DNA of 64,000 nucleotides from a virus. The notes under the pieces are model-generated. The model made no database searches. It saw only the letters and a program-made list of their open reading frames with translations, and had not been told where the DNA came from. Position 1 is the first letter of the stretch, and every line of letters starts with the position of its first letter. The position numbers were made by a program, and so were the translations under genes. Shown piece after piece: positions 6,790 through 60,421 of this stretch. The stretch is taken from the IMG/VR virus record IMGVR_UViG_3300035670_000059, positions 1-64,000 of that record; one strand, given 5' to 3'.

Positions 6790-6800
6790 ATATTTATAAC
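6790..6800 (+). promoter_or_regulatory. Late-promoter motif ATATTTATAAC
   Basis: Ends 7 nt before the start of the 114-aa gene at 6808; it begins just after the gp55 gene and heads the baseplate cluster. Confidence 0.65.
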
Positions 6801-6807
6801 AAAAATT

Positions 6808-7152
6808 ATGGGATCTTTAGATAACGTAGTATTTGGTAAAAAGAAATTTTCGGATATTTTAAGTGAAATATACGATAACCAAAAACGCAAAGAAAAACAA
6901 ATATCAGGATTAATTGCTGAATTAAAACCTCTTATTAGTGATATAGGAGATGCTACCTTAATTGTCCCACTCATTAAAGAATATTTAGAAATTGGCGTTA
7001 AAAACGACGAACAATTAATTAAAATGGCCACTATCATACAGCGTGCGATGAATAATAGCAGTGGTGAAGAATCGCTGGGGATTACCGAAGAGGAAAAACA
7101 ACAATTAATGGAAGAATTAGAAAAAATTAATTCTGATAAGGATAAAAAATGA
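6808..7152 (+). CDS. Hypothetical tail/baseplate-cluster protein (114 aa)
   Basis: A soluble, mostly helical protein with a lysine-rich N-terminus (FGKKKFSDILSEIYDNQKRKEK) and an acidic C-terminus. It is first in the baseplate cluster and its stop overlaps the start of the gp5-like gene by 4 bp (ATGA), so the two are translationally coupled. The close coupling suggests a partner or chaperone of the hub protein. I do not recognise the family. Confidence 0.65.
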   Translation: MGSLDNVVFGKKKFSDILSEIYDNQKRKEKQISGLIAELKPLISDIGDATLIVPLIKEYLEIGVKNDEQLIKMATIIQRAMNNSSGEESLGITEEEKQQLMEELEKINSDKDKK

Positions 7153-8417
7153 TAGGTAGTAAATTTGGATTTGCAGGACAAAACCAACCTTATTCTCCAG
7201 ATTCTTCTTTAGCTAACATAAACCGAAGAATTGAGAATTTAGCTAACAAATTAATTCCTGCTAGAGTAATTGATGTTATTTTAGATGAAACTCATCCTGA
7301 TTTTGTAAATTTAGGAGAATGGAATAGTATTGGTGTTATAAAATATGAATTAATTAATTCTCTTGAAGGAGAACAAACTGTTAGAAAAATAGCTAAGCCC
7401 CTCTTAGCAAATATTAAAACTTTTCCTCTAAAAAATGAAATTGTATTTTTAATAAGACTTCCTGATACTGATTCTCTTAATAATTTAACTGATAATGAAA
7501 CTTACTATTATCTGACATTAATATCAATGTGGAATCATCCCCACCATAATGCATTCCCCAACCCATTAAATAATAGTACCATATCAGAATCCCAGAAAAA
7601 AGATTATAAATCTATAGAGGAAGGAAATATACGAAGAGTAACAGATAATTCTACAGAAATAAATTTAAACTCAACAAATAATAGCGGGGGAAAATTTGTT
7701 GAAAAAATTAATATACATCCTATTTTACCCTTTACAGGGGATAATATATTTGAAGGAAGATTTGGAAATAGTATCAGATTAGGCAGTACTGTTAAATCCA
7801 AAAGTCAATATCAAAATAATTGGTCCACTTCAGGAAATGAAGGTGATCCCATTATTGTAATAAGAAATGGCCAACCTTCTAATTCTTCAGATGAAGGATG
7901 GTTACCTATAGTAGAAAATATAAATAATGATTTATCTTCTATTTATATTACCTCTACTCAAAAACTTCCAATAAATGTACCAAGTACAAATTATACAGGA
8001 ATACGAAGCGAATATATACCAATATTTCCCCAATCTTATAATTTACCCCAAGTAATATTAAATTCTGGTAGATTATTATTAAATTCCACAACTGATAGTA
8101 TTTTACTATCTTCTAAAAAAGTTATAGCATTATCTGCTATTGAAGATATTGGGTTAAGTTCTAGAGGGAATATAAGTCTATCAACTAAAGGTGTAAGATT
8201 AGGTGGAGCTGAAGCTAATGAATCTTTAATAATGGGGGATAGTTTTATAACTCAATTTAATATATTATTAGATTCTTTATCTCTTTTATGTGAAGCTTTA
8301 ACTACTGAACCTGTTTTAAAAAGTACCCCATTAATAGCTGTAGGACTTAGTAATACAATTAAAGCTATTAAAAATGTATCTAATTCTTTTACTTCCAAAA
8401 TTTCTAAAACATTATAA
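7149..8417 (+). CDS. Baseplate hub/central spike protein, gp5-like without lysozyme (422 aa)
   Basis: The N-terminal half has the OB-fold pattern of gp5-type hub proteins: IPARVIDVILDETHPDF, then EWNSIGVIKYELI and a middle ending in TFPLKNEIVFLIRLP. The C-terminal part (GRLLLNSTTDSILLSSKKVIALSAIEDIGLS...) has short repeating strands like a spike beta-helix. No T4-type lysozyme catalytic block is visible between them. It is co-directional with gp25 and gp6, as expected of a baseplate operon. The assignment rests on pattern and context. Confidence 0.65.
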   Translation: MIGSKFGFAGQNQPYSPDSSLANINRRIENLANKLIPARVIDVILDETHPDFVNLGEWNSIGVIKYELINSLEGEQTVRKIAKPLLANIKTFPLKNEIVFLIRLPDTDSLNNLTDNETYYYLTLISMWNHPHHNAFPNPLNNSTISESQKKDYKSIEEGNIRRVTDNSTEINLNSTNNSGGKFVEKINIHPILPFTGDNIFEGRFGNSIRLGSTVKSKSQYQNNWSTSGNEGDPIIVIRNGQPSNSSDEGWLPIVENINNDLSSIYITSTQKLPINVPSTNYTGIRSEYIPIFPQSYNLPQVILNSGRLLLNSTTDSILLSSKKVIALSAIEDIGLSSRGNISLSTKGVRLGGAEANESLIMGDSFITQFNILLDSLSLLCEALTTEPVLKSTPLIAVGLSNTIKAIKNVSNSFTSKISKTL

Positions 8418-8419
8418 AA

Positions 8420-9880: not shown

Positions 9881-9884
9881 AACC

Positions 9885-9895
9885 ATATTTATAAC
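9885..9895 (+). promoter_or_regulatory. Late-promoter motif ATATTTATAAC
   Basis: Ends 13 nt before the start at 9909; would serve the 123-aa gene, gp25 and gp6. Confidence 0.65.
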
Positions 9896-9908
9896 ATATA
9901 CTAATATT

Positions 9909-10280
9909 ATGAAATTAGACATATTAAGAAAAATCATTAGAGAAGAAGTAAAGGGTGCAATACAAGAAGAGTTAAAAGATCTTTTACTTGAAGCTATTCG
10001 CACCCCTAAACCTGTTATAGAAACTCAAACTTATAATCCTGTATCTACAGCTGGTTATATTTCACCTTCTACTACTACTTCTACAGCTACAGTTTCAAAA
10101 GAACAACTTAGAGAAAATTACCGAAATATATTAGGTGAAACTGCAGCTTCGTTTAATACTTCTCAAGTGGGTAAATCTTTACAATTACATGGTTCTATGG
10201 ATACTGCTTCACCAAATGGTAGATTACCTGATGGCGAAGTACCAATGGATATGATCATGGGGCTAATGAATAAAAAATAA
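9909..10280 (+). CDS. Hypothetical protein with amphipathic N-terminus (123 aa)
   Basis: The first 30 residues form a strongly amphipathic helix (LDILRKIIREEVKGAIQEEL, then DLLLEAI) very like the N-termini of several accessory proteins further right. A Thr/Ser-rich linker (STTTSTATVS) follows, then a short C-terminal domain ending with VPMDMIMGLMNKK. The stop overlaps the gp25 start by one base. Context says virion protein; the N-terminal helix could be a targeting or docking peptide. Confidence 0.65.
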   Translation: MKLDILRKIIREEVKGAIQEELKDLLLEAIRTPKPVIETQTYNPVSTAGYISPSTTTSTATVSKEQLRENYRNILGETAASFNTSQVGKSLQLHGSMDTASPNGRLPDGEVPMDMIMGLMNKK

Positions 10281-12528: not shown

Positions 12529-12531
12529 AAA

Positions 12532-18042: not shown

Positions 18043-18053
18043 ATATTTATAAT
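18043..18053 (+). promoter_or_regulatory. Late-promoter motif ATATTTATAAT
   Basis: Ends 9 nt before the start at 18063. Confidence 0.65.
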
Positions 18054-18062: not shown

Positions 18063-21000
18063 ATGAGTTTAGTTCAATATACTATATCTAATAACTCTTC
18101 GGTTGGTAAAACCTTTACGTACAATAGTTCTTCTGTAACTTATAATATTTTTGTACCTGGTTTTACCTCTTCTATTTTTTTAGGAGATAATACCCCTACA
18201 CCTTCTTTATTAATTACTGGAAGTATGGTGCCTGAAGATACTTTTGTATCTGATGCTTATATCCCACCAAGTGGTTCTGCATGGTTATGGAGTAATGGTA
18301 ATAAAGTACAGTACATTAAAATTTCTAATACTCCCTTAACAGGTTCTAATATTAGTTCTGTTATAAACCAAGCAGAATGGATTGAATTCTCAATGGTAGA
18401 AGCTAGAGATAAAGATGGAAATTATCTATATCCAACTGCTCCAAATTCTGCTATAGTAGAAAGATATGTAATAGCTAACGCTAATGATCAAGGAACATAT
18501 AATTCTATAATTATAAATGATTCTTCTACTGAAACTTCAATAGCAATTACTTCTAATACTTCAAGTGCGGAAACTGGATTTTCATATATTGATTCACAAT
18601 TTGAAATAGACCAAGATTGTAATCCATTATTAAATAATGCTACAGAACCTAGAACTAATGAATGGTTGCAAGATGTTGACTACTCCGTAAATGTAATAAT
18701 ACCTATTAATTTTGACCAATTAATAAATTTTACTGCTACTAAAGCAGCAGTTCCCCAATCTAATTACACACAACTAGGATTCGTTCATTCTAGATATGCT
18801 GGTAGTTCTACTACTCGAGAACAAATTAATGAATATAATACATCATCAATAGTAGATATTGAAAACAAGTTTGTGTATAATGATGAAGCCCCTTCATCCT
18901 TTATAAATAAAGGCAAAGGTTCTCCATTAGGTAAAATACCTAATGTTGAATTAAATAATGCTTATATAGCATATTTTGACAGAATTCTAGATCCATACCC
19001 AATATTAAATAATAAAGTAGCATATTATGTAAAATATTTAATAGATGAAGGAGGAAATATACTAGATCCTAGTATATCCGATATAAACTTTTCTATATCA
19101 AAAGATACATTCCAGTTAAAGGATTATGACAATAAACCTACTAGAATAAATACTGCAGTATCAAATATAGAACAAGGAAAAGAATTAGCAAAATTAACAG
19201 TTGGTTTAAGTTCGGTATATAAAGTTGGAGCTTATCCTTCTCCTATTCTTTACACACAAATTTCAAGTATTGGGCATGCTGATTCAATAATAATGTCCGG
19301 AAGTAGATTTCTTACAGCTTTAGGAGTAGGAGGAGTATTTACAGATTTTGGGGCTAATATATTTGCTACTCAATCATCATTTCCTCTAGCATCATCCCAA
19401 CTAGATGCTATAACTTTACCTGATACTAATTTAACATATGTTTCTGCTTCTATAACTTTTACTGATCCTGAGGTAGGGAGATTTACTACAAGTAGTATTA
19501 GTACTGCTCCTATATTATTTCCTCATGATCCAAATGGAACTCCACCAAATACTTCAGGTAGTGCTTTATCCGATAATTATACATTAAATGGATCTTTTAC
19601 ATTTACAACTTCTACTATTCCTGCTAGATATAGTGGGGATACCCAATCTGATTTTAGAAAACGAGATGTTTATTATGGATCACTTGGATCTTTAGCTACT
19701 AAACCTATTTTTGTTAATTTAAAACCATATCAAAAACCACCAACAACCCCAGATACTGATATCAATAATTATACTTTAAATACTACTGATTTTAAAGTTA
19801 ATGCTATTAAATTAACTATAACTGTTAGACCCGGAGAATCTAGTCAAGAAATTAAAAAAACTTTAAATTTAATCCAAAAGCCTGCAGGTTATAGTGACCA
19901 ATGGGTAATTAATTCTACAGGTCTTGTATTTACTCCTGATAGTTTGTACATAGAAGATTTAATTTTAAAAGAATTATACAATCAACCCAATGTAACAGAT
20001 AGTACTACACGTAATCTTGCTCGAGTTTTAATTGGTGGGGGATGGGGATATTTTGGAGGTTCTGTAAAAGGAACAGATGGGGTTGCAGTAAAATATGATT
20101 GGGGAATAGATTTTGAACAATCTAACTTTTCTCAAGGATCAGGATTTTATTTAAAAGTTGAGGGTGGATTTAATTATACCCAAGGAGCGGGTAGACATGG
20201 AGGATTTTCTGGAAATAAATTTGCAGATGATGTATTCTTATGGTATAATGCTGGAGGGGAAAGTAGTAGTGGTATCCAATGGAAAAGAACCTTTTCTCCT
20301 AATTATAATCTTAATCCTGCAGTAACTACTCCAGTATATTCTAAACCTATTCTTAAATATTTTATTACATCTCCTTTCTCTTCTGCTGGACAAGTTAAAA
20401 ACGCAGCACCTGGTCCATTTTGGAGAAGATACCCTGATTCAGTTGATGAATTATATATGTCATCTTCTATTTTAAATCAAACTTACTACAATGAAGAAAG
20501 TAAAAAAATTTTTGTTCAGGCCCATCTACCTTATGTAGGGGCAGTAAGTACTGATTTCCCATTAACTGTAGAACCTAGTTTTATTGAATTTGAGCCCGTT
20601 ACTGATATTTGGGAAATGAAAGAAGGAGATGAGATTAGATTTGAAAATAATGAAAATTTAACTTATAAAGTTACTTCTGTAGAGGGTAGAAGAGCTGTTT
20701 ATCCCCCTGAGGATGTTAATAGTGATTTACCTATAAATAAATTAAGAGTAGTAGTTACTCCTCCATTTGAATATACTGCATCTAATGGGCAAATTATTAA
20801 AAATGAACCCTCTAATTTTGATTTTTTTGTTGTCCGAAGATATAAAGAAAATAGAAATTTTATAATTTTGGATCAACAAATGCCATATGGTATAATTTCT
20901 ACAGGAAAAGGTGAAATCGCATTTTCTGGAGAAGATGCTTCAGTAGGAATAGAACCTGTAAATCCCTCTTCCTCTCCCGGTCTCTTACTCCCCCAATATC

Positions 21001-21071
21001 GAGTTAGTAGATTTAATACTAATCCTGATCTAGTACTTAAAGATCTTATTGAAAAAGGTATAGTAACATAA
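18063..21071 (+). CDS. Large tail/baseplate structural protein (1002 aa)
   Basis: A beta-rich, Ser/Thr/Asn-rich protein with repeated short strands and few charged residues, typical of baseplate or tail-fibre proteins. Recognisable segments include NNKVAYYVKYLIDEGGN, VLIGGGWGYFGGSVKG and the C-terminal LLPQYRVSRFNTNPDLVLKD. It follows its own late-promoter motif between other virion genes. I cannot match it to a T4 subunit; a gp8/gp10-like wedge role would fit the position. Confidence 0.65.
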   Translation: MSLVQYTISNNSSVGKTFTYNSSSVTYNIFVPGFTSSIFLGDNTPTPSLLITGSMVPEDTFVSDAYIPPSGSAWLWSNGNKVQYIKISNTPLTGSNISSVINQAEWIEFSMVEARDKDGNYLYPTAPNSAIVERYVIANANDQGTYNSIIINDSSTETSIAITSNTSSAETGFSYIDSQFEIDQDCNPLLNNATEPRTNEWLQDVDYSVNVIIPINFDQLINFTATKAAVPQSNYTQLGFVHSRYAGSSTTREQINEYNTSSIVDIENKFVYNDEAPSSFINKGKGSPLGKIPNVELNNAYIAYFDRILDPYPILNNKVAYYVKYLIDEGGNILDPSISDINFSISKDTFQLKDYDNKPTRINTAVSNIEQGKELAKLTVGLSSVYKVGAYPSPILYTQISSIGHADSIIMSGSRFLTALGVGGVFTDFGANIFATQSSFPLASSQLDAITLPDTNLTYVSASITFTDPEVGRFTTSSISTAPILFPHDPNGTPPNTSGSALSDNYTLNGSFTFTTSTIPARYSGDTQSDFRKRDVYYGSLGSLATKPIFVNLKPYQKPPTTPDTDINNYTLNTTDFKVNAIKLTITVRPGESSQEIKKTLNLIQKPAGYSDQWVINSTGLVFTPDSLYIEDLILKELYNQPNVTDSTTRNLARVLIGGGWGYFGGSVKGTDGVAVKYDWGIDFEQSNFSQGSGFYLKVEGGFNYTQGAGRHGGFSGNKFADDVFLWYNAGGESSSGIQWKRTFSPNYNLNPAVTTPVYSKPILKYFITSPFSSAGQVKNAAPGPFWRRYPDSVDELYMSSSILNQTYYNEESKKIFVQAHLPYVGAVSTDFPLTVEPSFIEFEPVTDIWEMKEGDEIRFENNENLTYKVTSVEGRRAVYPPEDVNSDLPINKLRVVVTPPFEYTASNGQIIKNEPSNFDFFVVRRYKENRNFIILDQQMPYGIISTGKGEIAFSGEDASVGIEPVNPSSSPGLLLPQYRVSRFNTNPDLVLKDLIEKGIVT

Positions 21072-21081
21072 TATTTATAAC
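21071..21081 (+). promoter_or_regulatory. Late-promoter motif ATATTTATAAC
   Basis: Ends 20 nt before the start at 21102; it overlaps the last base of the preceding stop codon. Confidence 0.65.
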
Positions 21082-21101: not shown

Positions 21102-21761
21102 ATGGGATATTTAAATAATACCGTAATTACAGTTGATGCTATATTAACTAAAAAAGGGAGAGAAGCCCTAGCTCGAAATGATGGTTCTTTTCGTATTACA
21201 CAATTTGCTCTTTCTGATGATGAAATAGATTATACCCTATATAATCCTACTCATCCATCAGGATCTGCATTTTATGGGGAAGCAATTGAAGGAATGCCTT
21301 TACTTGAAGCATTCCCGGATGATCAGCAAATCATGAAATATAAGTTAGCTACTTTACCTAGAGGTACTGCTAAACTTCCTATCTTGAATCTAGGATATGA
21401 TGCTATTACATTAAAACAAGGTGCATCTCTTTCTATTACTCCACAAACTCTAAACTATTTAGATAACGTTTCTACATTTGAAACTAGTGGGTATGTAGCT
21501 ACAATTGCAGACGTTAGATTAATGTCTTCATTTGAAGGATTAGGTATTAATACACAAACTGCCATTGATCAAAATTCAACTTCTACTATTGGTACTAACG
21601 TATCTAAAACTGTTATTGGAACTCAAATTAGTTTAAGAGCAACAACAGTTAATACATTATTTGGAACTAATTCCCAACTAAGAACTACTTTAACTGTAGT
21701 AGGATTGGATAGTGGAGCCAGAATTACAATTCCTGTTACAATTAACAAAACTACAACCTAA
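21102..21761 (+). CDS. Phage structural protein (219 aa)
   Basis: The opening, MGYLNNTVITVDAILTKKGREALARNDG, followed by FRITQFALSDDEIDYTLYNP, is a pattern I associate with a widespread small structural protein of marine and freshwater T4-like phages. The C-terminal half is a Thr-rich beta domain (SKTVIGTQISLRATTVN ... ARITIPVTINKTTT). It lies among tail genes and is followed 8 bp later by another structural gene. Its precise location in the virion is not known. Confidence 0.65.
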   Translation: MGYLNNTVITVDAILTKKGREALARNDGSFRITQFALSDDEIDYTLYNPTHPSGSAFYGEAIEGMPLLEAFPDDQQIMKYKLATLPRGTAKLPILNLGYDAITLKQGASLSITPQTLNYLDNVSTFETSGYVATIADVRLMSSFEGLGINTQTAIDQNSTSTIGTNVSKTVIGTQISLRATTVNTLFGTNSQLRTTLTVVGLDSGARITIPVTINKTTT

Positions 21762-25661: not shown

Positions 25662-25672
25662 ATATTTATAAT
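25662..25672 (+). promoter_or_regulatory. Late-promoter motif ATATTTATAAT, only 3 nt from the start codon
   Basis: The motif ends at 25672 and the ATG is at 25676, so a transcript from it would be leaderless or nearly so. Confidence 0.6.
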
Positions 25673-25675: not shown

Positions 25676-26005
25676 ATGCCTTCATTACACACTGATTTTA
25701 TATTAGCATTTGTAACCGGTTCAAATGTAACTTGCTCTTTTTCAAGTTCATATACTTTATATGAAACTCAATATAAATGTACTATTGGAGCAGATGAATA
25801 TAACTATTCTAACAACCCAAGTATAATTTCAGGCAGTGAAGGACAATTGTACAATTTTGCAACCGGTTCTTTTTTTGCACCTTATGTTACAACTGTTGGG
25901 TTATATGATGGATCTTATAATTTGTTAGCAGTAGCTAAACTAGCTAAACCACTTCCCACTTCCCGTACTACAGATACTACTATATTAATAAATTTCGATA
26001 AATAA
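25676..26005 (+). CDS. Short paralog of a tail-protein C-terminal domain (109 aa)
   Basis: The segment YNYSNNPSIISGSEGQL ... TTVGLYDGSYNLLAVAKLAKPLP aligns by eye with the end of the 339-aa protein at 21770 (FNYSTNPSFISGSTGEV; TTVGLYNDANELLAVAKLSRPL). The first 35 residues are different. It looks like a freestanding duplicate of that domain. A role as an alternative or competing subunit in the tail is possible. Confidence 0.7.
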   Translation: MPSLHTDFILAFVTGSNVTCSFSSSYTLYETQYKCTIGADEYNYSNNPSIISGSEGQLYNFATGSFFAPYVTTVGLYDGSYNLLAVAKLAKPLPTSRTTDTTILINFDK

Positions 26006-28244: not shown

Positions 28245-28255
28245 ATATTTATAAT
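28245..28255 (+). promoter_or_regulatory. Late-promoter motif ATATTTATAAT
   Basis: Ends 12 nt before the kinase start at 28268; places the kinase and fusion-protein genes in the late class. Confidence 0.65.
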
Positions 28256-28267: not shown

Positions 28268-29068
28268 ATGATTAGTTTAATGCAATTGCTAAAAGAAGTA
28301 CAAGGCAACCCCAAAGCAATAATTTTAGCGGGTGCACCAGGTGCGGGTAAAGGATTTATCTTAAAGGGTCTAGATTTAGGCGGATTAAAAGTCTTTAATC
28401 TAGACAATACTTTTGTAGACTTACTAAAACAAGCCAATATTTCTTTAGATTTAAAATCTCTTGGCCCCGAAGATAGAAGTGCAGCAGCTCAAGCAATGGT
28501 TCAAGCAACAACCAAACTAAAAAAAGAAACTATCCCACAAGCCATAGCTAATCAAGAATCATTTATATTAGATGGTACAGCTTCATCAGTTAAACAAACA
28601 AGTGAACTAAAATCTGAATTGGAAAATGCAGGATATGAAGTATTTATGCTATATGTTTATACTGATTTAGAACGTTCACTACAACAAAACCAAGATAGAT
28701 TTGAAAAATCTGGAGGCACCGATAGAAGCCTAGCCCCAGCTATTGTATTACGTACTTGGGCTGAGGTAACTAAAAATTACGATACTTACAAGTCAATGTT
28801 TGGTAATAATTTTGTATCGGTAGCTAATACTTTAAAGGATGAAAAGTTAAAAGATTTAGAATCTATTGTAGACAAATATCTTAGACCATTTACACCTAAA
28901 GATACTAAAGAAAAAGATCCTAAAGCACAAGCTCGAGCTAAAAAAGCAAAAGAACAATTAAATCAAGAAGTATCTGCTTTATTGCAAGACGAAGGGGTAG
29001 CTAATATAATTAACAATTCTGTTTCTAAGGAAGAAGCACAATCTAAAATACAACAATTCTTATCTTAA
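28268..29068 (+). CDS. P-loop kinase, zeta-toxin/AAA_33-like (266 aa)
   Basis: Walker A is GAPGAGKG at residues 22-29, followed by LKVFNLDNTF and an ILDGTASS strand, as in AAA_33/zeta-type small-molecule kinases. The N-terminus MISLMQLLKEVQ resembles a T4 capsid-targeting peptide and precedes the enzymatic fold. The C-terminal 60 residues are a lysine-rich helix. Its stop overlaps the start of the nucleotidyltransferase fusion, suggesting a two-enzyme pathway. The substrate is unknown. Confidence 0.7.
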   Translation: MISLMQLLKEVQGNPKAIILAGAPGAGKGFILKGLDLGGLKVFNLDNTFVDLLKQANISLDLKSLGPEDRSAAAQAMVQATTKLKKETIPQAIANQESFILDGTASSVKQTSELKSELENAGYEVFMLYVYTDLERSLQQNQDRFEKSGGTDRSLAPAIVLRTWAEVTKNYDTYKSMFGNNFVSVANTLKDEKLKDLESIVDKYLRPFTPKDTKEKDPKAQARAKKAKEQLNQEVSALLQDEGVANIINNSVSKEEAQSKIQQFLS

Positions 29069-31679: not shown

Positions 31680-31690
31680 ATATTTATAAC
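31680..31690 (+). promoter_or_regulatory. Late-promoter motif ATATTTATAAC
   Basis: Ends 14 nt before the start at 31705. Confidence 0.65.
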
Positions 31691-31704: not shown

Positions 31705-32004
31705 ATGAAAGATAATTTTGACATCCACAAATGGAATTTAGAACGTTACTTAAACGAAAGCCAAGAACGTGAACAGACAAACGAAAACCAAGAAAGTAAA
31801 CAGACAGCAGTAGATTGGTTGATTGGACAATTAAACAAGTCAGGATTTGCTCAAGTTGTAACAGATGAAGAAATTAAACAAGCCAAAGAGATGGAGAAGG
31901 AGCAGATAATGAATTCTTATGAACAAGGTATAAAGGATGATGATGGATACGGTGGTTATATTTCAAATTCAGAAAATTACTATAACCAAACTTACGGTAA
32001 ATAA
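31705..32004 (+). CDS. Small polar hypothetical protein (99 aa)
   Basis: The N-terminus has FDIHKWNLERYLNESQ, a short amphipathic helix ending in LNE, followed by a Glu/Gln-rich low-complexity stretch and a short C-terminal domain (GYGGYISNSENYYNQTYGK). It is flanked by two late-promoter motifs. The leading helix resembles those of neighbouring accessory proteins and could be a packaging peptide. No family is recognised. Confidence 0.6.
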   Translation: MKDNFDIHKWNLERYLNESQEREQTNENQESKQTAVDWLIGQLNKSGFAQVVTDEEIKQAKEMEKEQIMNSYEQGIKDDDGYGGYISNSENYYNQTYGK

Positions 32005-32038: not shown

Positions 32039-32049
32039 ATATTTATAAA
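32039..32049 (+). promoter_or_regulatory. Late-promoter motif ATATTTATAAA
   Basis: Ends 12 nt before the start at 32062. Confidence 0.6.
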
Positions 32050-32061: not shown

Positions 32062-32676
32062 ATGAGCGATTTTAACTATATTGAGTATCTAAAAAATAAC
32101 CCATTACTTAAGGGTGAAAAAACTCAATCCACAAAATTAATTACTGAAGCACAAGAAGACACAATCGATAGCTTACAAAAAGCAGCTGATGACACTTCTA
32201 AAATGCCAGCAGATAGAGATGAAGCAAGGAATAAAATGTATGCTATGAAAAAAGCTAAGATGAAAGTATCTGAGCTTAAAGCTAAAATCCGTGAAGAAAT
32301 TCTCTCTACTTTAAGCGAAGAAGAGGATTACGAGAAAATGGGACGCGAAGTAGAATATGGTATTTTCCCTGGATCTGAAGAAGATGAATTATCACCTGAA
32401 GAAATGATGGGTGATATGGAAGATATGGAAGATATGCCAATTGATGAAGCTAAAGGAGACGAAGAAGAAGCACCAGCAGAAGAAGAAATGGATGCTGAAG
32501 TAAACGTTGACGTTGAAGCAGCTCCTGCTCAAGGCTTATCAGCTGAAGAACAAGAAATCCAAAATAGCTTAAAAATCGCTTACGACAATGCTGCTGCTAT
32601 TGGCGATCAAAAACTAGCTGATCAAATTGGTAACTCTATTACTTTCTTTACTAGAACACACATAGTAGAAAGATAA
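32062..32676 (+). CDS. Acidic hypothetical virion-cluster protein (204 aa)
   Basis: The N-terminal helix (FNYIEYLKNNPLLKG, then KLITEAQED) is followed by a basic helix SELKAKIREEILSTLSEEE and a very acidic, Met/Glu-rich middle (EEMMGDMEDMEDMPIDEAKG), similar in composition to the scaffold protein. The C-terminal 45 residues form a neutral helical domain (LKIAYDNAAAIGDQKLADQIGN). Late-promoter control and composition suggest an internal head or core protein. The next gene starts one base after its stop. Confidence 0.65.
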   Translation: MSDFNYIEYLKNNPLLKGEKTQSTKLITEAQEDTIDSLQKAADDTSKMPADRDEARNKMYAMKKAKMKVSELKAKIREEILSTLSEEEDYEKMGREVEYGIFPGSEEDELSPEEMMGDMEDMEDMPIDEAKGDEEEAPAEEEMDAEVNVDVEAAPAQGLSAEEQEIQNSLKIAYDNAAAIGDQKLADQIGNSITFFTRTHIVER

Positions 32677-40514: not shown

Positions 40515-40550
40515 GGACGCATATTTATAATAAAATAATAATATGCGTCC
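40515..40550 (+). promoter_or_regulatory. 10-bp inverted repeat enclosing a late promoter and covering a start codon
   Basis: GGACGCATAT (40515-40524) and ATATGCGTCC (40541-40550) are perfect reverse complements with a 16-nt spacer. The 3' arm contains the ATG of the GIY-YIG gene (40543), and the late-promoter motif (40521-40531) overlaps the 5' arm and spacer. Confidence 0.75.
40521..40531 (+). promoter_or_regulatory. Late-promoter motif ATATTTATAAT
   Basis: Ends 11 nt before the GIY-YIG start; it lies within the inverted repeat described at 40515-40550. Confidence 0.65.
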
Positions 40551-41190
40551 TTACATTTATTTGGTTAAAAATCAACAAAATAAAATAGTTTATATTGGTC
40601 AACAAATTGGAACTAAATCCTTAAATGAATACAAAGGTTCTGGTTTACTGTTAAATAGAGCCTACAACAAATATGGTGAAAATTATTTCAAACGAGAAAT
40701 CATTGAATATTGTAATGTGGATGAATTAAATGATAAAGAAAAATTATACATAAAACAATATAATACAAAATTTCCACATGGATATAATTTAACCGAGGGT
40801 GGTGATGGAATGAAGGGATACACATATAACAATAATCAAAAACAAAATATATCTAATGCTAAAAATGGGCAAAAATATCCTAAAGAACATGGCGAAAAAA
40901 TAAGACAAGCTAAATTAGGTAAAAAACGAGATCTCGAAACTATAAATAAAATAATTCAAACTAAAGCATCCAAACATAATATTAAAATAGATTTAACTTT
41001 AAAAAACCAATCTAGAAGCAATTCTCAAAAAACAATACTGCAATATGATCTCCAAAATAATCTATTAAACGAATACCAATCCGCTCAAGAAGCAGGTAGA
41101 TGCTTAGGAAAATCAGGAAATAGTATAGCAGATTGTGCCTCCGGAAGACAATCCACAGCTTATGGTTTTGTTTGGAAATACAGAGAATAG
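40543..41190 (+). CDS. GIY-YIG homing endonuclease with NUMOD-type DNA-binding tail (215 aa)
   Basis: The catalytic start YIYLVKNQQNKIVYIG (residues 4-19), YKGSGLLLNRAYNKYGE and GYNLTEGGDG are hallmarks of the I-TevI/Seg type. The C-terminal part has NUMOD3-like KHGEKIRQAKLGKK-type helices and a NUMOD1-like block (ILQYDLQNNLLNEYQSAQEAGR ... ADCASGRQSTAYGFVWKY). Its start codon sits in a hairpin arm with a late promoter inside, as in T4 I-TevI control. It lies between the flavoprotein and another host-promoter gene. Confidence 0.85.
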   Translation: MRPYIYLVKNQQNKIVYIGQQIGTKSLNEYKGSGLLLNRAYNKYGENYFKREIIEYCNVDELNDKEKLYIKQYNTKFPHGYNLTEGGDGMKGYTYNNNQKQNISNAKNGQKYPKEHGEKIRQAKLGKKRDLETINKIIQTKASKHNIKIDLTLKNQSRSNSQKTILQYDLQNNLLNEYQSAQEAGRCLGKSGNSIADCASGRQSTAYGFVWKYRE

Positions 41191-42448: not shown

Positions 42449-42459
42449 ATATTTATAAC
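42449..42459 (+). promoter_or_regulatory. Late-promoter motif ATATTTATAAC
   Basis: Ends 23 nt before the start at 42483; the motif begins two bases after the kinase stop codon. Confidence 0.65.
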
Positions 42460-42482: not shown

Positions 42483-42959
42483 ATGAAAAAATCAGAATTA
42501 AAGAAATACATTAAAGAACAAATTGTTAATGCTCTATCTGAGGTAACTGTAGTAGATAAACTTACATCCACAGATGAAATTCCTCAAATCGCTAAAGACG
42601 AGAAAAAAGAAGTATCTACAGTAAAAAAAGCAGTTGATGCTGCTAAGACATCTGGTAAATCTGTAACTATAGCTGAAAAAGATGAGGATGATGTAGAAGT
42701 AGAAGACAACTGGTATAAATCTAAGGATGAAGATGGGGATAAAGATAAAGAACCATCTAAAGCAGATTTGAAAAAAGATGCTAAAGCCACTAAAGGTATA
42801 GCTAAGGCAAAAGATGAATTAGCTGTCTTAGCTAGAGAAATGAAATCTTTAGCTAAAAAATACAAAGAAGCTGAAGGTGCTGCTAAAGAAAAAATCGTAG
42901 CTGATTTGAAAGAAAAAACTAAACTTAAAAAAGAACTAGAGGCAATTCTAGACAAATAA
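42483..42959 (+). CDS. Lys/Glu-rich helical protein with amphipathic N-terminus (158 aa)
   Basis: The leader SELKKYIKEQIVNALSEV is an amphipathic helix like those of other accessory proteins, ending in LSE. A charged, low-complexity middle (EDNWYKSKDEDGDKDKEPSK) and a long Ala/Lys/Glu helix (AKDELAVLAREMKSLAKKYKE) follow. The composition resembles phage internal head or core proteins. It has its own late-promoter motif and precedes the spanin-like pair by one base. Confidence 0.65.
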   Translation: MKKSELKKYIKEQIVNALSEVTVVDKLTSTDEIPQIAKDEKKEVSTVKKAVDAAKTSGKSVTIAEKDEDDVEVEDNWYKSKDEDGDKDKEPSKADLKKDAKATKGIAKAKDELAVLAREMKSLAKKYKEAEGAAKEKIVADLKEKTKLKKELEAILDK

Positions 42960-45198: not shown

Positions 45199-45209
45199 AT
45201 ATTTATAAC
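45199..45209 (+). promoter_or_regulatory. Late-promoter motif ATATTTATAAC
   Basis: Ends 13 nt before the portal gene start at 45223. Confidence 0.7.
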
Positions 45210-45222: not shown

Positions 45223-47124
45223 ATGGCAAACACAGGCTTATTTAGTAGACTACAACGATTATTTTCAACAGATGTAATCATCCGAAATGTTGGGGGTAAT
45301 CAAATTAGTGTAATGGATACTAATCAAATCCAAACCAACGGGGAAATTCAAACTAACTCCCTTATGGACAGGTACAATAGAATCTATTCTACTAATCCAA
45401 GCTCACTGTACGGTTCTCAATTCAACTTCAACTACAAGTACTTAAGACCCCAATTATATTCAGAATATGATGTAATGGATCAAGACGCTATTATAGCTTC
45501 TGCTTTGGACATTATAGCTGATGAATGTACTTTGAAAAACGATATGGGCGAAGTATTATCTATTCGCTCTTCTAACGAAAATATTCAAAAAATTCTATAC
45601 AACTTATTCTATGATGTTTTAAACATCGAATTTAACTTATGGGCATGGGTTAGACAAATGTCTAAATATGGTGACTTTTTCCTTAAGCTAGAAATAGCAG
45701 AAAAATATGGTGTGTATAATGTAATTCCCTACACTGCATTCCACATTGAAAGATTAGAAGGATTTAATCGCAACAATCCATCTGAAATTAAATTTAGATA
45801 TTCACCTGATGGGCTAGTAAATGCCAATTCTGGACTATATGCTGTTACAGGACAAGGTACAGACCAAACCGGTGGTGTAACATTTGATAACTACGAGATG
45901 GCCCACTTTAGACTAATTGGAGATACCAATTACCTTCCATATGGTCGTTCATATATTGAACCAGCTCGTAAACTATTCAAGCAATATACTTTGATGGAAG
46001 ATGCGATGTTGATCCATAGAATCGCTCGTGCCCCAGAAAAACGTATATTCTATGTAAACGTAGGTTCTATTCCACCAAATGAAGTAGATGCATTCATGCA
46101 GAAAACTATTTCAAACATGAAACGTACTCCATATGTTGATAAGCAAACTGGAGACTACAATTTGAAATACAATATGCAAAACATGATGGAGGATTTTTAT
46201 ATCCCAATTCGTGGAAATGATACAACAACTAAAATTGAAACCACCAAAGGTTTAGATTACGATGGTATCCAAGATGTTGAATATCTAAGAAATAAACTAT
46301 TTGCTGCCCTTAAAGTACCTAAAGCATTTTTAGGGTATGACGAAAATATAGAAGGCAAAGCAACATTAGCAGCCGAAGATATTAGATTTGCTCGTACAAT
46401 TGATCGTATTCAACGTATTCTAGTATCAGAACTTAACAAAATTGCTCTAGTACACTTATATTCTCAGGGGTATAGAGATGAGGCGTTGACAAACTTTGAA
46501 TTGTCTATGCAAACTCCTTCTATTATATTTGAACAAGAGAAAATTGAGTTGATGAAATCTAAAGCTGAACTAGCTCAATCATTACTAGAACAAAAACTAT
46601 TACCTACAGATTGGATTTACGACAATATATTCCACTTATCTGAAGACCAGTACGATGAATATAGAGATCTAATTAGAGAAGATGCTAAACGAGCATTCCG
46701 AGTTACCCAAATTGAAAACGAAGGTAATGACCCAGTTGAAAGTGGCAAATCTTATGGTACCCCACACGATTTAGCTTCTTTATATGGTAAAGGTAGAATG
46801 GATTCTGATCCTAAGAATGTTCCAAGTGGATATGATGAAGATGAAACATTAGGTAGACCAAAAGATTCCATTTCCAAAATTGGAAAACAAGATAGTAATT
46901 TTGGTAAAGATCGTTTGGGTGTTAAGAGAATGAAAGATACTGATAAAAACGATTCACTAGATAGCCGTACAGATACTAACAAAAGTGGTATGGCCCTTGA
47001 AAATGCTCAAGTTGCTTACTTGAAAAATAAAGACATTTTTTCTAAAATGGACAAGAAAAAACTAATATTTGAGCAAGACAAAGACGATACTTCGTTACTA
47101 GATGAAAACCAGTTGAGGGGATAA
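45223..47124 (+). CDS. 20: Portal protein gp20
   Basis: The conserved T4-type portal blocks are present: YKYLRPQLYSEYDVMDQDAIIASALDIIADECT, WAWVRQMSKYGDFFLKL, YGRSYIEPARKLFKQYTLMEDAMLIHRI and FLGYDENIEGKATLAAEDIRFARTI. These form the clip, stem and crown of the dodecameric portal. At 633 residues it is longer than T4 gp20 (524), mainly through a polar C-terminal tail (YDEDETLGRPKDSISK...). The gene lies between terminase and the head-core genes, the standard order. Confidence 0.9.
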   Translation: MANTGLFSRLQRLFSTDVIIRNVGGNQISVMDTNQIQTNGEIQTNSLMDRYNRIYSTNPSSLYGSQFNFNYKYLRPQLYSEYDVMDQDAIIASALDIIADECTLKNDMGEVLSIRSSNENIQKILYNLFYDVLNIEFNLWAWVRQMSKYGDFFLKLEIAEKYGVYNVIPYTAFHIERLEGFNRNNPSEIKFRYSPDGLVNANSGLYAVTGQGTDQTGGVTFDNYEMAHFRLIGDTNYLPYGRSYIEPARKLFKQYTLMEDAMLIHRIARAPEKRIFYVNVGSIPPNEVDAFMQKTISNMKRTPYVDKQTGDYNLKYNMQNMMEDFYIPIRGNDTTTKIETTKGLDYDGIQDVEYLRNKLFAALKVPKAFLGYDENIEGKATLAAEDIRFARTIDRIQRILVSELNKIALVHLYSQGYRDEALTNFELSMQTPSIIFEQEKIELMKSKAELAQSLLEQKLLPTDWIYDNIFHLSEDQYDEYRDLIREDAKRAFRVTQIENEGNDPVESGKSYGTPHDLASLYGKGRMDSDPKNVPSGYDEDETLGRPKDSISKIGKQDSNFGKDRLGVKRMKDTDKNDSLDSRTDTNKSGMALENAQVAYLKNKDIFSKMDKKKLIFEQDKDDTSLLDENQLRG

Positions 47125-47134: not shown

Positions 47135-47145
47135 ATATTTATAAA
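47135..47145 (+). promoter_or_regulatory. Late-promoter motif ATATTTATAAA
   Basis: Ends 16 nt before the start at 47162. Confidence 0.6.
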
Positions 47146-54110: not shown

Positions 54111-54133
54111 TCCTAGATTAAATATTCTTTAAA

Positions 54134-54160: not shown

Positions 54161-54162
54161 AT

Positions 54163-54780: not shown

Positions 54781-54782
54781 AT

Positions 54783-54812
54783 TAAGCCCAATCCTTTGGA
54801 TTGGGCTTTTTT
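54783..54812 (+). terminator. Strong terminator after the HNH gene
   Basis: AGCCCAATCC (54785-54794), loop TTT, GGATTGGGCT (54798-54807), then a T-run to 54812. Confidence 0.9.
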
Positions 54813-54818
54813 ATTGTT

Positions 54819-54829
54819 ATATTTATAAC
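54819..54829 (+). promoter_or_regulatory. Late-promoter motif ATATTTATAAC
   Basis: Ends 20 nt before the PhoH-like gene and directly follows the terminator. Confidence 0.65.
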
Positions 54830-54849
54830 TGAATTTTAAAGTTATCTAT

Positions 54850-55536
54850 ATGACATCAAATCATCATTCGGACGACGTGTTCGTCCAAAAGCGTAAACCA
54901 AAGAATCCAATTAAGTTTAATGTAGTTTTAAATGCCGAACAAAAACAAGCCAAATCACTTATTTTAGAAAATCCCATTACTGTAATAAAAGGTATGGCTG
55001 GCTCTGGTAAAACGCTAGTTGCTGTCCAATGTGCTCTTGACATGTTTTTCAATAAACAGGTGGAAAAAATAGTCATATCACGGCCCACTGTATCCAAAGA
55101 AGATATCGGGTTTTTACCGGGCGATATACGTGAAAAAATGGATCCTTGGTTGGCCCCAATATACCACAATCTATATATGTTATACTCTAAAGAAAAAGTA
55201 GATAAACATTTAGAAAATGGAGATATTGAAATTGTACCATTTGCTTTTATGCGAGGTAGAACATTTGTAAACTCGTTCGTAATTGTAGATGAGGCCCAAA
55301 ACGTAACACATCCTCAAATGGAAACTGTTATAGGACGTTTAGGAAAAAATTCTAAAATGGTAATATGTGGCGATATAGCCCAAATAGATTTAAAGAATAA
55401 AAAAGAATCTGGATTTACCTTCCTATATAGATTGGAAGAAAATGTTAAAGGATTTAAAACAATTTCTCTAGAAACAAACCACAGACACGAAATAGTTGCC
55501 CCTATATTAGAGGTATACAAGCTTTTTAGGGACTAA
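54850..55536 (+). CDS. phoH: PhoH-like ATPase
   Basis: Walker A GMAGSGKT (residues 48-55), ISRPTVSKEDIGFLPGDIREKMDPW, Walker B VIVDEAQN (D147/E148) and the arginine-finger region LETNHRH are all diagnostic of PhoH proteins. The 228-residue length equals the ATPase core, without the KH domain of some cellular versions. Phage phoH is very common in aquatic T4-like phages; its function is unresolved (RNA-related ATPase or phosphate-linked role). Here it is under late-type control next to capsid and neck genes. Confidence 0.9.
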   Translation: MTSNHHSDDVFVQKRKPKNPIKFNVVLNAEQKQAKSLILENPITVIKGMAGSGKTLVAVQCALDMFFNKQVEKIVISRPTVSKEDIGFLPGDIREKMDPWLAPIYHNLYMLYSKEKVDKHLENGDIEIVPFAFMRGRTFVNSFVIVDEAQNVTHPQMETVIGRLGKNSKMVICGDIAQIDLKNKKESGFTFLYRLEENVKGFKTISLETNHRHEIVAPILEVYKLFRD

Positions 55537-55546
55537 CATTTCTTCA

Positions 55547-55557
55547 ATATTTATAAT
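55547..55557 (+). promoter_or_regulatory. Late-promoter motif ATATTTATAAT
   Basis: Ends 6 nt before the start at 55564. Confidence 0.65.
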
Positions 55558-55563
55558 AAAAAG

Positions 55564-55992
55564 ATGGCAACCTTAAAACTTTTTATAAACGAACAAATTA
55601 GCTTAGACGGAGATGATAGAAGCACTCTTCAATCTATTGACATATCAGATATAAACTATCTAGATCATAGAACTATGCTTCTTCCTGCTGGTGTTAAAAC
55701 CACTATATTTAACTTTGATACCGAAGTAACATCCGGTACTTTTAAGGAAGATAAGCTAAAATATGCTCGTGTAACAAACCATTCTACTAGCATTCCAGTT
55801 AATATAGAGGTATCTTCCTCTACACAAGCATTTAACTTTAGGATGGAACCACAACAATCTTTCTATCTTCCAAGTTCACAGGTAACAGGAAGCTTAGTAG
55901 GTTTTTCATACGATTATATTTCTTCTATAAACTTAAGACCATCTGGAAGTGGTAATACTGCTAAAGTAGAATTTTTTGTAGCAACATCTTAA
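55564..55992 (+). CDS. Hypothetical beta-rich virion protein (142 aa)
   Basis: A soluble beta-sandwich-like protein: TLKLFINEQISLDGDDRST, LPAGVKTTIFNFDTEVTSG, YARVTNHSTSIPVNIEVSS and LPSSQVTGSLVGFSYDYISS. The composition resembles small head-decoration or neck-associated proteins. It lies between PhoH and gp13 and is the first gene of the neck unit, under a late motif. No family is recognised. Confidence 0.65.
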   Translation: MATLKLFINEQISLDGDDRSTLQSIDISDINYLDHRTMLLPAGVKTTIFNFDTEVTSGTFKEDKLKYARVTNHSTSIPVNIEVSSSTQAFNFRMEPQQSFYLPSSQVTGSLVGFSYDYISSINLRPSGSGNTAKVEFFVATS

Positions 55993-56002
55993 TTAAAATA
56001 AT

Positions 56003-57148: not shown

Positions 57149-57149
57149 T

Positions 57150-57668
57150 ATGTGTGCAATGTTTGGAGGCTTACGAGATGTAAGCTTAATTAGAAAGATG
57201 AATCGTGAGCTGTTAGGTAATATAATTACCCAACAAGCTGCTTTCTACAAATACAAATTGCAGGAAACTAAAGTAAATTTATATGGTGAGGCAGCAGGTG
57301 TAAAATATTACGATGGTCCATTTCTATTTAACTGTTTAATAACTAGAGTAGACCAGCAATACCCAGTAAGTGATATGGGTGTAGAATACCAACAAGGTAT
57401 GTCATTTGCTTTTTTTAGAGATGATTTAGTAGATGCTAATGTAGTACCTGAAGTAGGAGATATTATATTATATCAAGATAGCTACCATGGAGTACAATCT
57501 ACAATAATTAACCAATACTTTGTAGGCAAAAACCCAGATTATCCAAATAATCAAAACCCATTAAACCCCGGATTAGAAGAATTTGGCTCAAGTATATCTA
57601 TAATATGCGATACTTTCTATATTCCAGCAGATAAGGTTGCAATTTCTCCATATAAAGAACGCATGTAA
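57150..57668 (+). CDS. 14: Neck protein gp14-like (172 aa)
   Basis: The segments PFLFNCLITRVDQQYPVSDMGVEYQQG, VPEVGDIILYQDSYHGV, NQYFVGKNPDYPNNQNPLNPG and SIICDTFYIPADKVAI fit the gp14 neck-protein pattern, although the protein is shorter than T4 gp14 (256 aa). The position between gp13 and gp15 is standard. It would form the neck ring with gp13. The stop overlaps the start of gp15 by one base. Confidence 0.7.
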   Translation: MCAMFGGLRDVSLIRKMNRELLGNIITQQAAFYKYKLQETKVNLYGEAAGVKYYDGPFLFNCLITRVDQQYPVSDMGVEYQQGMSFAFFRDDLVDANVVPEVGDIILYQDSYHGVQSTIINQYFVGKNPDYPNNQNPLNPGLEEFGSSISIICDTFYIPADKVAISPYKERM

Positions 57669-58681: not shown

Positions 58682-58682
58682 G

Positions 58683-59066
58683 ATGTCAGATATTAGATTT
58701 ATAGATTCGTTAAATGTAGGAGCATATACCATTGAACCTGTCAGTGGTAGTATTAATATATTAGAAAATGTTAACAATTATGTAATTACGGCTACAGGTT
58801 ATCCTGACATTATACAAGGTGAACCTAATTTACAGTTCGATGGCTTAAATTTAACTATAGGCGGTAATTCCAGTGGTACATCTCGTTTAGAGGTATACCA
58901 CACGGGAAGTGTTGATAATTTAATGTTAATACGAAATGCGAGCACAAATACCGGTATTAAAGTAGATGGTGATGGTAGATTTCAATTACTAGAATTTGCT
59001 TCTTTACCCTCACCTATTGAAGGGGGGATTGTGTACGCGAGCAATGAATTTTATATAGGAATATAA
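58683..59066 (+). CDS. Small fibre-like structural protein (127 aa)
   Basis: A beta-rich protein with QFDGLNLTIGGNSSGTSRLEVYHTG and NASTNTGIKVDGDGRFQLLEF, the short repeat style of tail-fibre shafts. It begins one base after the gp15 stop and precedes the longer fibre proteins. Its small size suggests a fibre connector or decoration. No precise family can be named. Confidence 0.65.
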   Translation: MSDIRFIDSLNVGAYTIEPVSGSINILENVNNYVITATGYPDIIQGEPNLQFDGLNLTIGGNSSGTSRLEVYHTGSVDNLMLIRNASTNTGIKVDGDGRFQLLEFASLPSPIEGGIVYASNEFYIGI

Positions 59067-59074
59067 AAATAATA

Positions 59075-59085
59075 ATATTTATAAC
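59075..59085 (+). promoter_or_regulatory. Late-promoter motif ATATTTATAAC
   Basis: Ends 22 nt before the fibre gene start at 59108. Confidence 0.65.
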
Positions 59086-59107
59086 AAATATACTTTTATA
59101 ATATAAC

Positions 59108-60133
59108 ATGGCAACCTGGAAGAAAATAATTGTTAGCGGCTCGAATGCTCATCTAGCTCAAATCACCTCCTCTGTTTTAACAGATGGTAATCTAATAATG
59201 GCGGGCACAGGTGGTGCTTTAAAAAATAGTAACATATCTTTATCTGGCGGAAATTTTAATATTGGGTCTAACTCCATTATTTCCACGGGTGCTAACTCAG
59301 TATTAACCGGTTCATTTAGTGGTTCCTTTGTTGGTACTACCAACTTACCAGATTTAACCCAAGGCGCGGGTATTGTTCCGTTTACTTATGATGGTGGAGG
59401 AACTGCTACTGTTGCTGTTTCTGGTGCTGCTGCTTTAAATAGTGATGCAGTAACAAAATGGAATGGTGCCGCATTCGTTAACTCTTCCTTAACAGATAAT
59501 GGCACAGTAGTATCAGGTGCTTCTTCTATTCAATTATCAGGTGCTAACTCTTCTTTAACAGGTTCATTTACCGGTTCTTTTACAGGTGATGGTTCAGGTT
59601 TAACAGGATTAGCTACTACTTTAGATGTATCTGGTTCAAATGGCTCTGGCATTTCAATTAATATCTTAACCCAAGATCTTACAATTGGTGGTACTGTAAA
59701 CGAAATTGAAACTTCTGCAGCTGGTACTACAATTACAATTGGTTTACCAAATGATGTAACAATTGGTCAAGATTTAGTAGTTAATAGAAACTTAACAGTA
59801 TTTGGTACTGCTTCTTTCCAACACACTGAAGATCTTGATGTAGCCGATAGATTTATCCGTTTAGCTTCTGGCTCAAACGCAGCTGGAGACGGTGGTATTG
59901 CAATACAACAAAGTAATGCATTAGATGCTGAAGTATTTGGATTTGATTCTGGTGCTACACGTTGGGGAGTAAGCAGCTCATTTGATGCTTCCCAAAATGC
60001 ATTTGTTCCTGATGCTTACATGGCTTTAACTTTAGAAGGAGCAGGTACAGATCCAACAGTAGTAGCAGCTAGATATCAAGTAAAAGGTAATATTTTTATA
60101 GGTTCAGATGAAGGTATTTGGATCTACTCTTAA
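59108..60133 (+). CDS. Tail-fibre-like protein A (341 aa)
   Basis: The start MATWKKIIVSGSNAHLAQI is paralogous to that of the 60493 protein. The shaft contains repeated units such as GSFSGSFVG, GSFTGSFTGDGSGLTGL and LTIGG-type turns common in marine and freshwater phage fibres, and a C-terminal domain (EDLDVADRFIRLASGSNAAGDGGIAIQ) that recalls phage structural knob domains. It overlaps the earliest in-frame start of the next gene, for which a later ATG is preferred. Confidence 0.7.
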   Translation: MATWKKIIVSGSNAHLAQITSSVLTDGNLIMAGTGGALKNSNISLSGGNFNIGSNSIISTGANSVLTGSFSGSFVGTTNLPDLTQGAGIVPFTYDGGGTATVAVSGAAALNSDAVTKWNGAAFVNSSLTDNGTVVSGASSIQLSGANSSLTGSFTGSFTGDGSGLTGLATTLDVSGSNGSGISINILTQDLTIGGTVNEIETSAAGTTITIGLPNDVTIGQDLVVNRNLTVFGTASFQHTEDLDVADRFIRLASGSNAAGDGGIAIQQSNALDAEVFGFDSGATRWGVSSSFDASQNAFVPDAYMALTLEGAGTDPTVVAARYQVKGNIFIGSDEGIWIYS

Positions 60134-60152
60134 TACATTAAAAAATTGGTTT

Positions 60153-60392
60153 ATGTCATTTACAGCAGCAAACATTATAGTAGGGGGTTCCAAAATTGAA
60201 GTGGAAACCCCCACTACTTCCTCCACCAACAATTCTACTACTCTTGAGCTAACAGACAAAGAACTTGAGCTGTTACTATTAACCATTAAAAATGGTTTGT
60301 TTAGAGGAGAATACGTTGAAACCGTATACAATCTAACTCTTAAGCTACAAAAACAGCTAGTAGATTTGAAATACAAAAACAACAAGCTATAA
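60153..60392 (+). CDS. Small protein with helical C-terminus (79 aa)
   Basis: ATG 60153 is preferred over 60108, which would overlap the upstream fibre gene. The first half is Thr/Ser-rich (EVETPTTSSTNNSTTLE) and the second is a helix (LTDKELELLLLTIKNGLFRGEY ... LKLQKQLVDLKYKNNKL). It may be a fibre chaperone or adaptor, as small genes between fibre genes often are, but no motif confirms this. Confidence 0.6.
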   Translation: MSFTAANIIVGGSKIEVETPTTSSTNNSTTLELTDKELELLLLTIKNGLFRGEYVETVYNLTLKLQKQLVDLKYKNNKL

Positions 60393-60410
60393 CTAGAAGC
60401 AGAGTATCCA

Positions 60411-60421
60411 ATATTTATAAC
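60411..60421 (+). promoter_or_regulatory. Late-promoter motif ATATTTATAAC with long leader
   Basis: Lies 71 nt before the GTG start at 60493, the longest spacing of the set; the leader contains hairpin ACAGC/GCTGT. Confidence 0.6.

Follow-up and report, generated by a model that had tools for sequence, protein, structure and literature searches.

Late promoters of phage T4, which work with gp55, gp33 and gp45, have a single -10-like box and no -35 element, lie before virion genes and are read by a factor with a sigma-2 domain. According to passages of PMC7892883, the T4 box, TATAAATA, spans -13 to -6, the pockets of gp55 hold A-12, A-9 and A-8, and Y97 stacks on A-12; a passage of PMC2988020 places a T at -13. 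TATAAATA together with a T4-type gp55 is published for T4 and KVP40, and NATAAATA for the late promoters of cyanophages such as S-PM2 and Syn9, which have the same layout and role and go with gp55 (excerpts of PMC2984593). Ma-LMM01, a Microcystis phage and cyanobacterial myovirus, also has a late class, but the relevant part of PMC5780444 reports its promoters as SigA-like with two boxes, in a phage without gp55. Here we describe a motif, ATATTTATAA, that recurs in the first 64 kb (the window) of the 113,732-base IMG/VR virus record IMGVR_UViG_3300035670_000059, together with a candidate sigma factor encoded at 6073-6774. We propose that ATATTTATAA(C/T)AAAA probably serves as the sole, -10-like box of a class of phage late promoters read by this sigma.

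Placement and direction of the motif

The window holds 16 exact copies of ATATTTATAA, all on the plus strand, compared with a mean of 2.24 and a maximum of 7 in 100 shuffles. Across the whole record there are 26 plus-strand copies and one minus-strand copy; ten of the former and the latter lie beyond the window. With genes called by us from ATG, the longest first, at a minimum of 40 aa and an overlap below 15%, 25 of the 26 plus-strand copies are intergenic, although intergenic DNA makes up 8.0% of bases, and the sole minus-strand copy is within a gene. Intergenic pieces of at least 10 nt contain 24 forward and no reverse copies, compared with a mean of 0.88 and a maximum of 4 in 300 dinucleotide shuffles. 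The first-pass annotation had located all 16 sites correctly, with their strand and eleventh base (9 C, 5 T and 2 A), and had raised the question of whether the motif is equally dense inside genes; these counts show that it is not. At the 26 sites of the record, base 11 is C at 15, T at 8 and A at 3. When aligned, the 26 sites also reveal A-rich bases downstream of the motif, a feature absent from that annotation. The window features are as follows.

6073-6774, plus strand: candidate late sigma factor, 233 aa (AlphaFold model, fold matches and a sub-threshold Pfam match); predicted to comprise a sigma-2 domain (roughly residues 12-117) and a C-terminal helical domain (roughly residues 138-230)
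6790-6800, plus strand: motif before open reading frame (ORF) 6808-7152, directly 3' of the sigma gene
9885-9895, plus strand: motif before ORF 9909-10280
18043-18053, plus strand: motif before ORF 18063-21071
21071-21081, plus strand: motif before ORF 21102-21761
25662-25672, plus strand: motif before ORF 25676-26005; the T4 register would put +1 on the A of the ATG
28245-28255, plus strand: motif before ORF 28268-29068
31680-31690, plus strand: motif before ORF 31705-32004
32039-32049, plus strand: motif before ORF 32062-32676
40521-40531, plus strand: motif before the homing endonuclease gene 40543-41190, which thus has its own copy
42449-42459, plus strand: motif before ORF 42483-42959
45199-45209, plus strand: motif before the portal gene 45223-47124
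47135-47145, plus strand: motif before the ORF from 47159 (TTG) or 47162 (ATG) to 48028
54784-54808, plus strand: intrinsic-terminator-like hairpin with a T run; 11 nt further on, the next motif begins
54819-54829, plus strand: motif before the PhoH-like gene 54850-55536
55547-55557, plus strand: motif before ORF 55564-55992
59075-59085, plus strand: motif before ORF 59108-60133
60411-60421, plus strand: motif 71 nt before the GTG-start ORF 60493-62055

In the window, the 11-mer ends 3-23 nt before a start codon and once 71 nt before one, the latter being the GTG, as had been described. Over the record, 24 of 26 sites have the 10-mer 4-32 nt ahead of a called ATG; the exceptions are 60411, whose GTG start falls outside the ATG calls, and 73820 (78 nt). 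No column upstream of the 26 aligned sites reached 0.4 bit, in agreement with the earlier statement that no -33 box (or -35 element) accompanies the motif.

Beyond the window, copies stand before a tail-fibre gene (71662) and before the genes for the tail sheath (74676) and the tail tube (76445), and the copy at 76991 starts 8 nt after a terminator-like hairpin at 76958-76983. That two motifs (54819 and 76991) directly follow such hairpins suggests a promoter rather than a ribosome signal. No exact copy lies upstream of the ssb, recombinase, DnaB helicase and ribonucleotide reductase (nrd) genes at about 91-98 kb. We refer to a structural block on the basis of family matches, in searches that covered at most 46 of the record's ORFs, and of synteny with Flavobacterium phage immuto. 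Taken together, the data support the proposal of a phage-specific promoter class that has no upstream box and is found mainly in this block. The neighbouring ORFs at 59108 and 60493 open alike (MATWKK and VPNWKK) and are perhaps paralogues.

De novo motif finding by expectation maximisation (EM) was performed on six sets, each alongside 8 dinucleotide shuffles with seeds equal to those used for the data. For 39 gaps of the late region, EM returned ATATTTATAAcAAA at 64% of gaps with a log-likelihood ratio (LLR) of 142.3, compared with at most 47.1 in shuffles. The 20 other gaps of the record gave no motif (LLR 51.6, compared with 50.2 in shuffles), and a search of the record for early two-box promoters found no convincing class. 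Another sequence with a strand bias in the record, TATAAATAA (15:1), was rejected as mostly coding sequence on inspection. No report of the box TATTTATA was found in a literature search that mostly lay outside subscription journals.

The core of the motif, TATTTATA, differs from T4 TATAAATA at -10 and -9 only, where the central AA is replaced by TT; six of the eight core bases are identical in the same orientation, and the adenines at -12 and -8 are kept. TATAAATA itself has 25 plus-strand copies in the record, 18 genic and 7 intergenic. The core is also the exact reverse complement of TATAAATA, and the first-pass annotation had read it as a T4 late box lying on the opposite strand, which would imply antisense or bidirectional transcription. 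Late T4 transcripts of either polarity, mentioned in a passage of PMC2988020, would be in keeping with that. However, TATWWATA is self-complementary, so that 'reverse complement of TATAAATA' and 'AA to TT swap' denote the same letters and the core alone implies no strand. The flanks (an A before the core, A(C/T) and A-rich bases after it) point to the gene, as does the 24:0 intergenic count. Because flanks and placement are asymmetric, we read the box in the direction of the gene. Phage RM378 has genes on both strands in the 37-kb stretch analysed and carries 11 copies of a variant box, TATTTAAA, 8 of them no more than 60 nt ahead of a same-strand gene (5 on the minus and 3 on the plus strand) and 3 in regions of this kind but on the opposite strand. 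A box acting from the opposite strand is therefore extremely improbable, and a same-strand TATAAATA with a central TT is favoured.

The candidate sigma factor

The factor encoded at 6073-6774 had been called gp55-like. Its AlphaFold model has a mean predicted local distance difference test (pLDDT) score of 80. In the VIA fold search, five chains matched at Z 8.5-9.4 and 2.5-2.8 Å over 92-94 residues (among the best, 1or7_B with Z 9.4 and 2.5 Å over 92 residues), where Z below 13 may reflect a common arrangement in helical models. All 50 titles among the matches listed were sigma factor, RNA polymerase or initiation complex; rows with a root-mean-square deviation near 20 Å span two loosely joined domains and were set aside. 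Foldseek alone gave no PDB match at E<=0.001, and PDB sequence searches with a single sequence or a profile gave no confident match. The best named match in a viral-model search was a Bacillus phage sigma factor (E 0.019). Pfam Sigma70_r2 matched the factor below threshold (E 0.038), as its sole match in the record; no Sigma70_r4 match was found anywhere in the record, and the factor has no PHROG family. Among 41 relatives, Sigma70_r2 was matched in 3, phrog_234 (late sigma) in 1, phrog_1740 (sigma factor) in 1 and the unnamed phrog_11747 in 9, besides single matches to six unrelated or unnamed families. By its predicted fold, the protein is a putative sigma-2-domain factor. The C-terminal domain (6484-6771), modelled alone, reached a pLDDT of 89.8 and showed no clear fold (best Z 4.4); sigma-factor chains appeared in its structural search only at Z 2-3.6.

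The factor family, for which one scan confirmed at least 580 relatives, has members in the record and in immuto, Mel-JY01 and RM378 (E 5.7e-13); its profile had no match in T4 or S-RIM8. Conversely, phrog_234 had no match in the record at E<=0.1, matched T4 (E 2.5e-70) and S-RIM8 (E 4.7e-75), and was marginal for the immuto factor (0.008). When the family profile was aligned with nine T4-type gp55 proteins, only the sigma-2 part aligned (probability 47.8, E 1.9e-4). Judged by these profiles, the factor is only remotely related to T4 gp55 and is not a T4-type gp55. The earlier description thus stands as far as the predicted sigma-2 domain is concerned and fails as to T4 type.

Y95 of the factor is invariant in 41 of 41 relatives and aligns with T4 gp55 Y97 in the profile alignment. 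The equivalents of T4 gp55 H95 and T99 differ in the factor family, being F/Y and S/G, respectively. Cyanophage gp55 likewise has F at the H95 position. Since cyanophage gp55 with this F goes with NATAAATA, we name no residue as the cause of the AA to TT change. The pairing of N13 with Q15 was made by eye, N13 being outside the aligned block.

Compared with the T4 system, the box here is TATTTATA instead of TATAAATA and the record gave no match to a T4-family gp55; shared features are the absence of a -35 element and the placement before virion genes (portal, tail sheath, tail tube and tail-fibre gene). It differs further in the central TT, in a factor of another family and in the additional C-terminal domain of that factor. 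By sequence, a gp45-like clamp was found in none of the four phages with the factor and in both controls, using PF09116 and a cyanophage clamp query; another profile, PF02916, found T4 and missed S-RIM8, the window's record is possibly a fragment, and a diverged clamp may escape. The motif appears to work like a T4 late promoter without being, as far as tested, a member of the T4 gp55 system.

Conservation in relatives and in cultured phages

We compared portal, tail-tube and sigma regions using the best 80 relatives per scan. The portal set contained 78 relatives with at least 60 nt upstream, 68 of them distinct, and the tail-tube set 76 distinct regions. ATATTTATAA was present upstream of the portal gene in 67 of 68 regions, 13-19 nt before the ATG, and upstream of the tail tube gene in all 76, 12-26 nt before the ATG. 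As controls, the reverse complement of the 10-mer was found in 0/68 portal and 2/76 tail-tube regions, that of TATTTAT in 2/68 and 36/76 (the latter have A-rich leaders), and TATAAATA in 2/68 and 3/76. In the first 80 relatives, amounting to 840 kb with overlapping kin, the 10-mer occurred 157 times forward and 4 times in reverse. Ten bases remain fixed while the spacing to the ATG drifts, which fits a promoter whose leader length is free to vary.

The motif also follows the sigma gene itself. In the window's clade, 76 of 77 loci have ATATTTAT no more than 150 nt beyond the stop codon of this gene. Family-wide, that stretch, coding or not, contains TATTTAT at 123 of 160 loci, representing 18 of 27 clades; the reverse complement is present at 23 of 160, and shuffles gave a mean of 13.0 and a maximum of 22 of 160. 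A clade survey was based on 165 family proteins in 27 tree clades, of which 16 had at least 12 upstream regions and 11 were dropped; only identical 30-nt ends were collapsed, so that counts within clades are non-independent. ATATTTAT was sense-biased in 13 of the 16 clades surveyed (sense:antisense 97:10, 15:1, 14:0, 12:1, 6:0, 6:0, 4:0, 3:0, 12:0, 8:0, 5:0, 4:0 and 4:0). RM378 scored 0:0 in this survey and has its variant box instead; EM on 45 of its upstream regions returned TTATTTAAAnAAAa (LLR 72.3, compared with at most 53.9 in shuffles).

A switch of sigma within the family, suggested by a TATAAATA ratio of 10:0 in clade 1, was dropped since this is largely one orthologous site repeated across loci; in most of these loci TATTTAT follows that site before the ATG. 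In the same clade (L126 and relatives, e.g. L155:1055), a conserved TATAAATATATATCCC was observed about 34 nt upstream of TATTTATT, downstream of the sigma gene.

Across six phages compared, box type tracks factor family: four have the family, one of them with a variant box, and two have a T4-type gp55. In a 49-kb stretch of T4, TATAAATA occurs 14 times on the plus and 4 times on the minus strand. A 40-kb stretch of S-RIM8, in which a T4-type gp55 was found, has 3 intergenic plus-strand copies of TATAAATA and no ATATTTAT. Cyanophage late promoters keep the central AA that is replaced here.

The closest cultured relative is immuto, which infects Flavobacterium sp. LMO8 and whose annotation lists two DNA polymerases of family A. 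EM separated two classes in this phage. Its early region (62 gaps) gave TTCnTATATTTAGg (LLR 222.2, compared with at most 57.5 in shuffles), and its late region (34 gaps) gave aTATTTATAAtaAA (LLR 90.8, compared with at most 51.8). The early box, which we write as TATATTTAG, is represented by 26 plus-strand intergenic copies of TA(T/C)(A/C)TTTAG, each preceded by TTG at a distance of 20 bases from the TA; 25 of them lie before the sigma gene. This early class (L084-L086, e.g. 70266 and 73343) is very uniform, with conserved bases after the box, and stands in front of many small genes at about 60-76 kb. Exact ATATTTATAA occurs 8 times forward and never in reverse in immuto, 6 of the 8 after the sigma gene.

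These two classes bear on a possibility that the first-pass annotation had allowed, namely an extended Bacteroidetes -7 element; if read by the host primary sigma, it would make these ordinary Bacteroidetes promoters. At Bacteroidetes promoters the upstream box is TTTG/TTG near -33. The -7 consensus is TAnnTTTG according to part of PMC9723704. Sigma-A promoters of this kind are likely the host's type, and a near match to them, TTG-N20-TA(T/C)(A/C)TTTAG, seems to serve the early genes of immuto. An A/T-rich box near gene starts, the Flavobacterium host of immuto and the presence of the factor in some flavobacterial bins would all suit a host element. The factor is found on nine metagenome-assembled-genome contigs; the closest bin carries only the name 'bacterium', and the three after it are assigned to Flavobacteriales or a lower rank; a further flavobacterial bin is distant, and among the distant ones two are labelled archaeal and one gammaproteobacterial. 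As bins can be contaminated, they argue only weakly for a flavobacterial host. The late class, in contrast, misfits TAnnTTTG, having another -7 sequence and no upstream TTG box. The separate early class of immuto, in which both host-type boxes are present, indicates that the late motif is not a host -7 element, and ATATTTAT is also enriched before genes in Mel-JY01, in which Shine-Dalgarno (SD)-like sites are common. Such sites precede 29 of 81 plus-strand genes above 100 aa in the Mel-JY01 stretches, compared with 7 of 104 in the record; immuto has them at 5 of 152 genes and the T4 stretch at 19 of 33. We therefore regard a host -7 element as very unlikely and favour a phage-specific class.

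The host of Mel-JY01 is labelled Microcystis elabens in its record, a label on which the SD argument does not depend. Its intergenic ATATTTAT count is 12 forward and 1 reverse (mean 2.27 and maximum 7 in 300 shuffles), and within genes it is 12 forward and 20 reverse. Of 16 ATATTTAT copies at most 90 nt from a gene, 9 sit 33-44 nt ahead of the start codon, the others being closer to it or farther away; in 13 of the 16 cases an SD-like site lies between the two or nearby. The placement of the core in Mel-JY01 thus tends to leave space for the SD site. This argues against a leader element in the mRNA that serves translation initiation or mRNA processing. Such an element would account for the position 4-32 nt before the ATG and for the A-rich bases that follow, and Kozak-like sequences are reported for Flavobacterium johnsoniae in part of PMC6847099. 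It is at odds with a spacing that varies by up to 14 nt among orthologues while ten bases stay fixed, with the two copies directly after terminator-like hairpins, and with the absence of the exact motif from 35 of the 58 gaps that measure at least 18 nt, the other 23 having it. Overall, a leader element is highly unlikely, and we conclude that this is a real, strongly conserved phage promoter class.

Proposed mechanism and its implications

In the mechanism that we propose, the host RNA polymerase core, joined by the phage sigma from 6073-6774, would open the duplex at TATTTATA, at -13 to -6 in the T4 register, and transcription would start about six bases downstream of the box. Leaders would then be very short, 0-28 nt at 24 of 26 sites in the T4 register, which would suit a host that does not rely on SD sites. 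The first motif comes directly after the sigma gene, whose upstream neighbours would be read early by the host sigma; virion genes would be read once the phage sigma accumulates.

Several observations weigh against this proposal. Besides the 35 gaps without the exact motif, the capsid gene at 52491 (gp23 family) has none directly upstream, and two copies (90158 and 109428) lie beyond the structural block. In immuto, 8 of the 26 intergenic copies of [AC]TATTTATA lie before the sigma gene and 18 after it. Clade 1 is one of three exceptions in the survey, with ATATTTAT at 3:8, its reverse matches being largely one orthologous TATAAATAT site. The de novo motif of Mel-JY01 (LLR 49.6) is indistinguishable from shuffles (at most 48.2). 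According to part of PMC9723704, only 5.5% of mRNAs are leaderless in one flavobacterium, and the pocket residues compared do not account for the AA to TT change. LR756508, a 484-kb uncultured phage with a relative of the factor, shows no ATATTTAT enrichment in the 40 kb around the factor (1:1 in 31 upstream regions). Finally, RM378 encodes a second, ordinary sigma at 128.6 kb (Sigma70_r2 E 1.0e-15), so its box may be read by that sigma.

The last two points would also fit late promoters whose box is read by another phage or host factor, given that we infer recognition by the 6073-6774 protein from co-occurrence. On the other side, factor family and box type pair up in the six phages compared, the frequency of TATTTAT after the sigma stop exceeds that of every shuffle, and the record has no further Sigma70_r2 match and no Sigma70_r4 match. 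A different reader is therefore unlikely, and the 6073-6774 protein is the preferred candidate.

Motif and factor occur jointly in numerous environmental phages and depart from the textbook T4 system, and the family suggests an exception on a large scale. Tentatively, a large T4-related branch may carry out late transcription without gp55, gp33 and the clamp. One two-domain sigma would read a TT-swapped box, with its C-terminal domain replacing the flap contact of gp33. Late genes would then be tied to sigma synthesis rather than to replication, and the code would cross host phyla. Flavobacterium phage immuto provides a cultured test case, and the family offers natural variation for asking which sigma residues read -10 and -9. 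For many unannotated environmental phages, the motif would provide a readable late-promoter signal.

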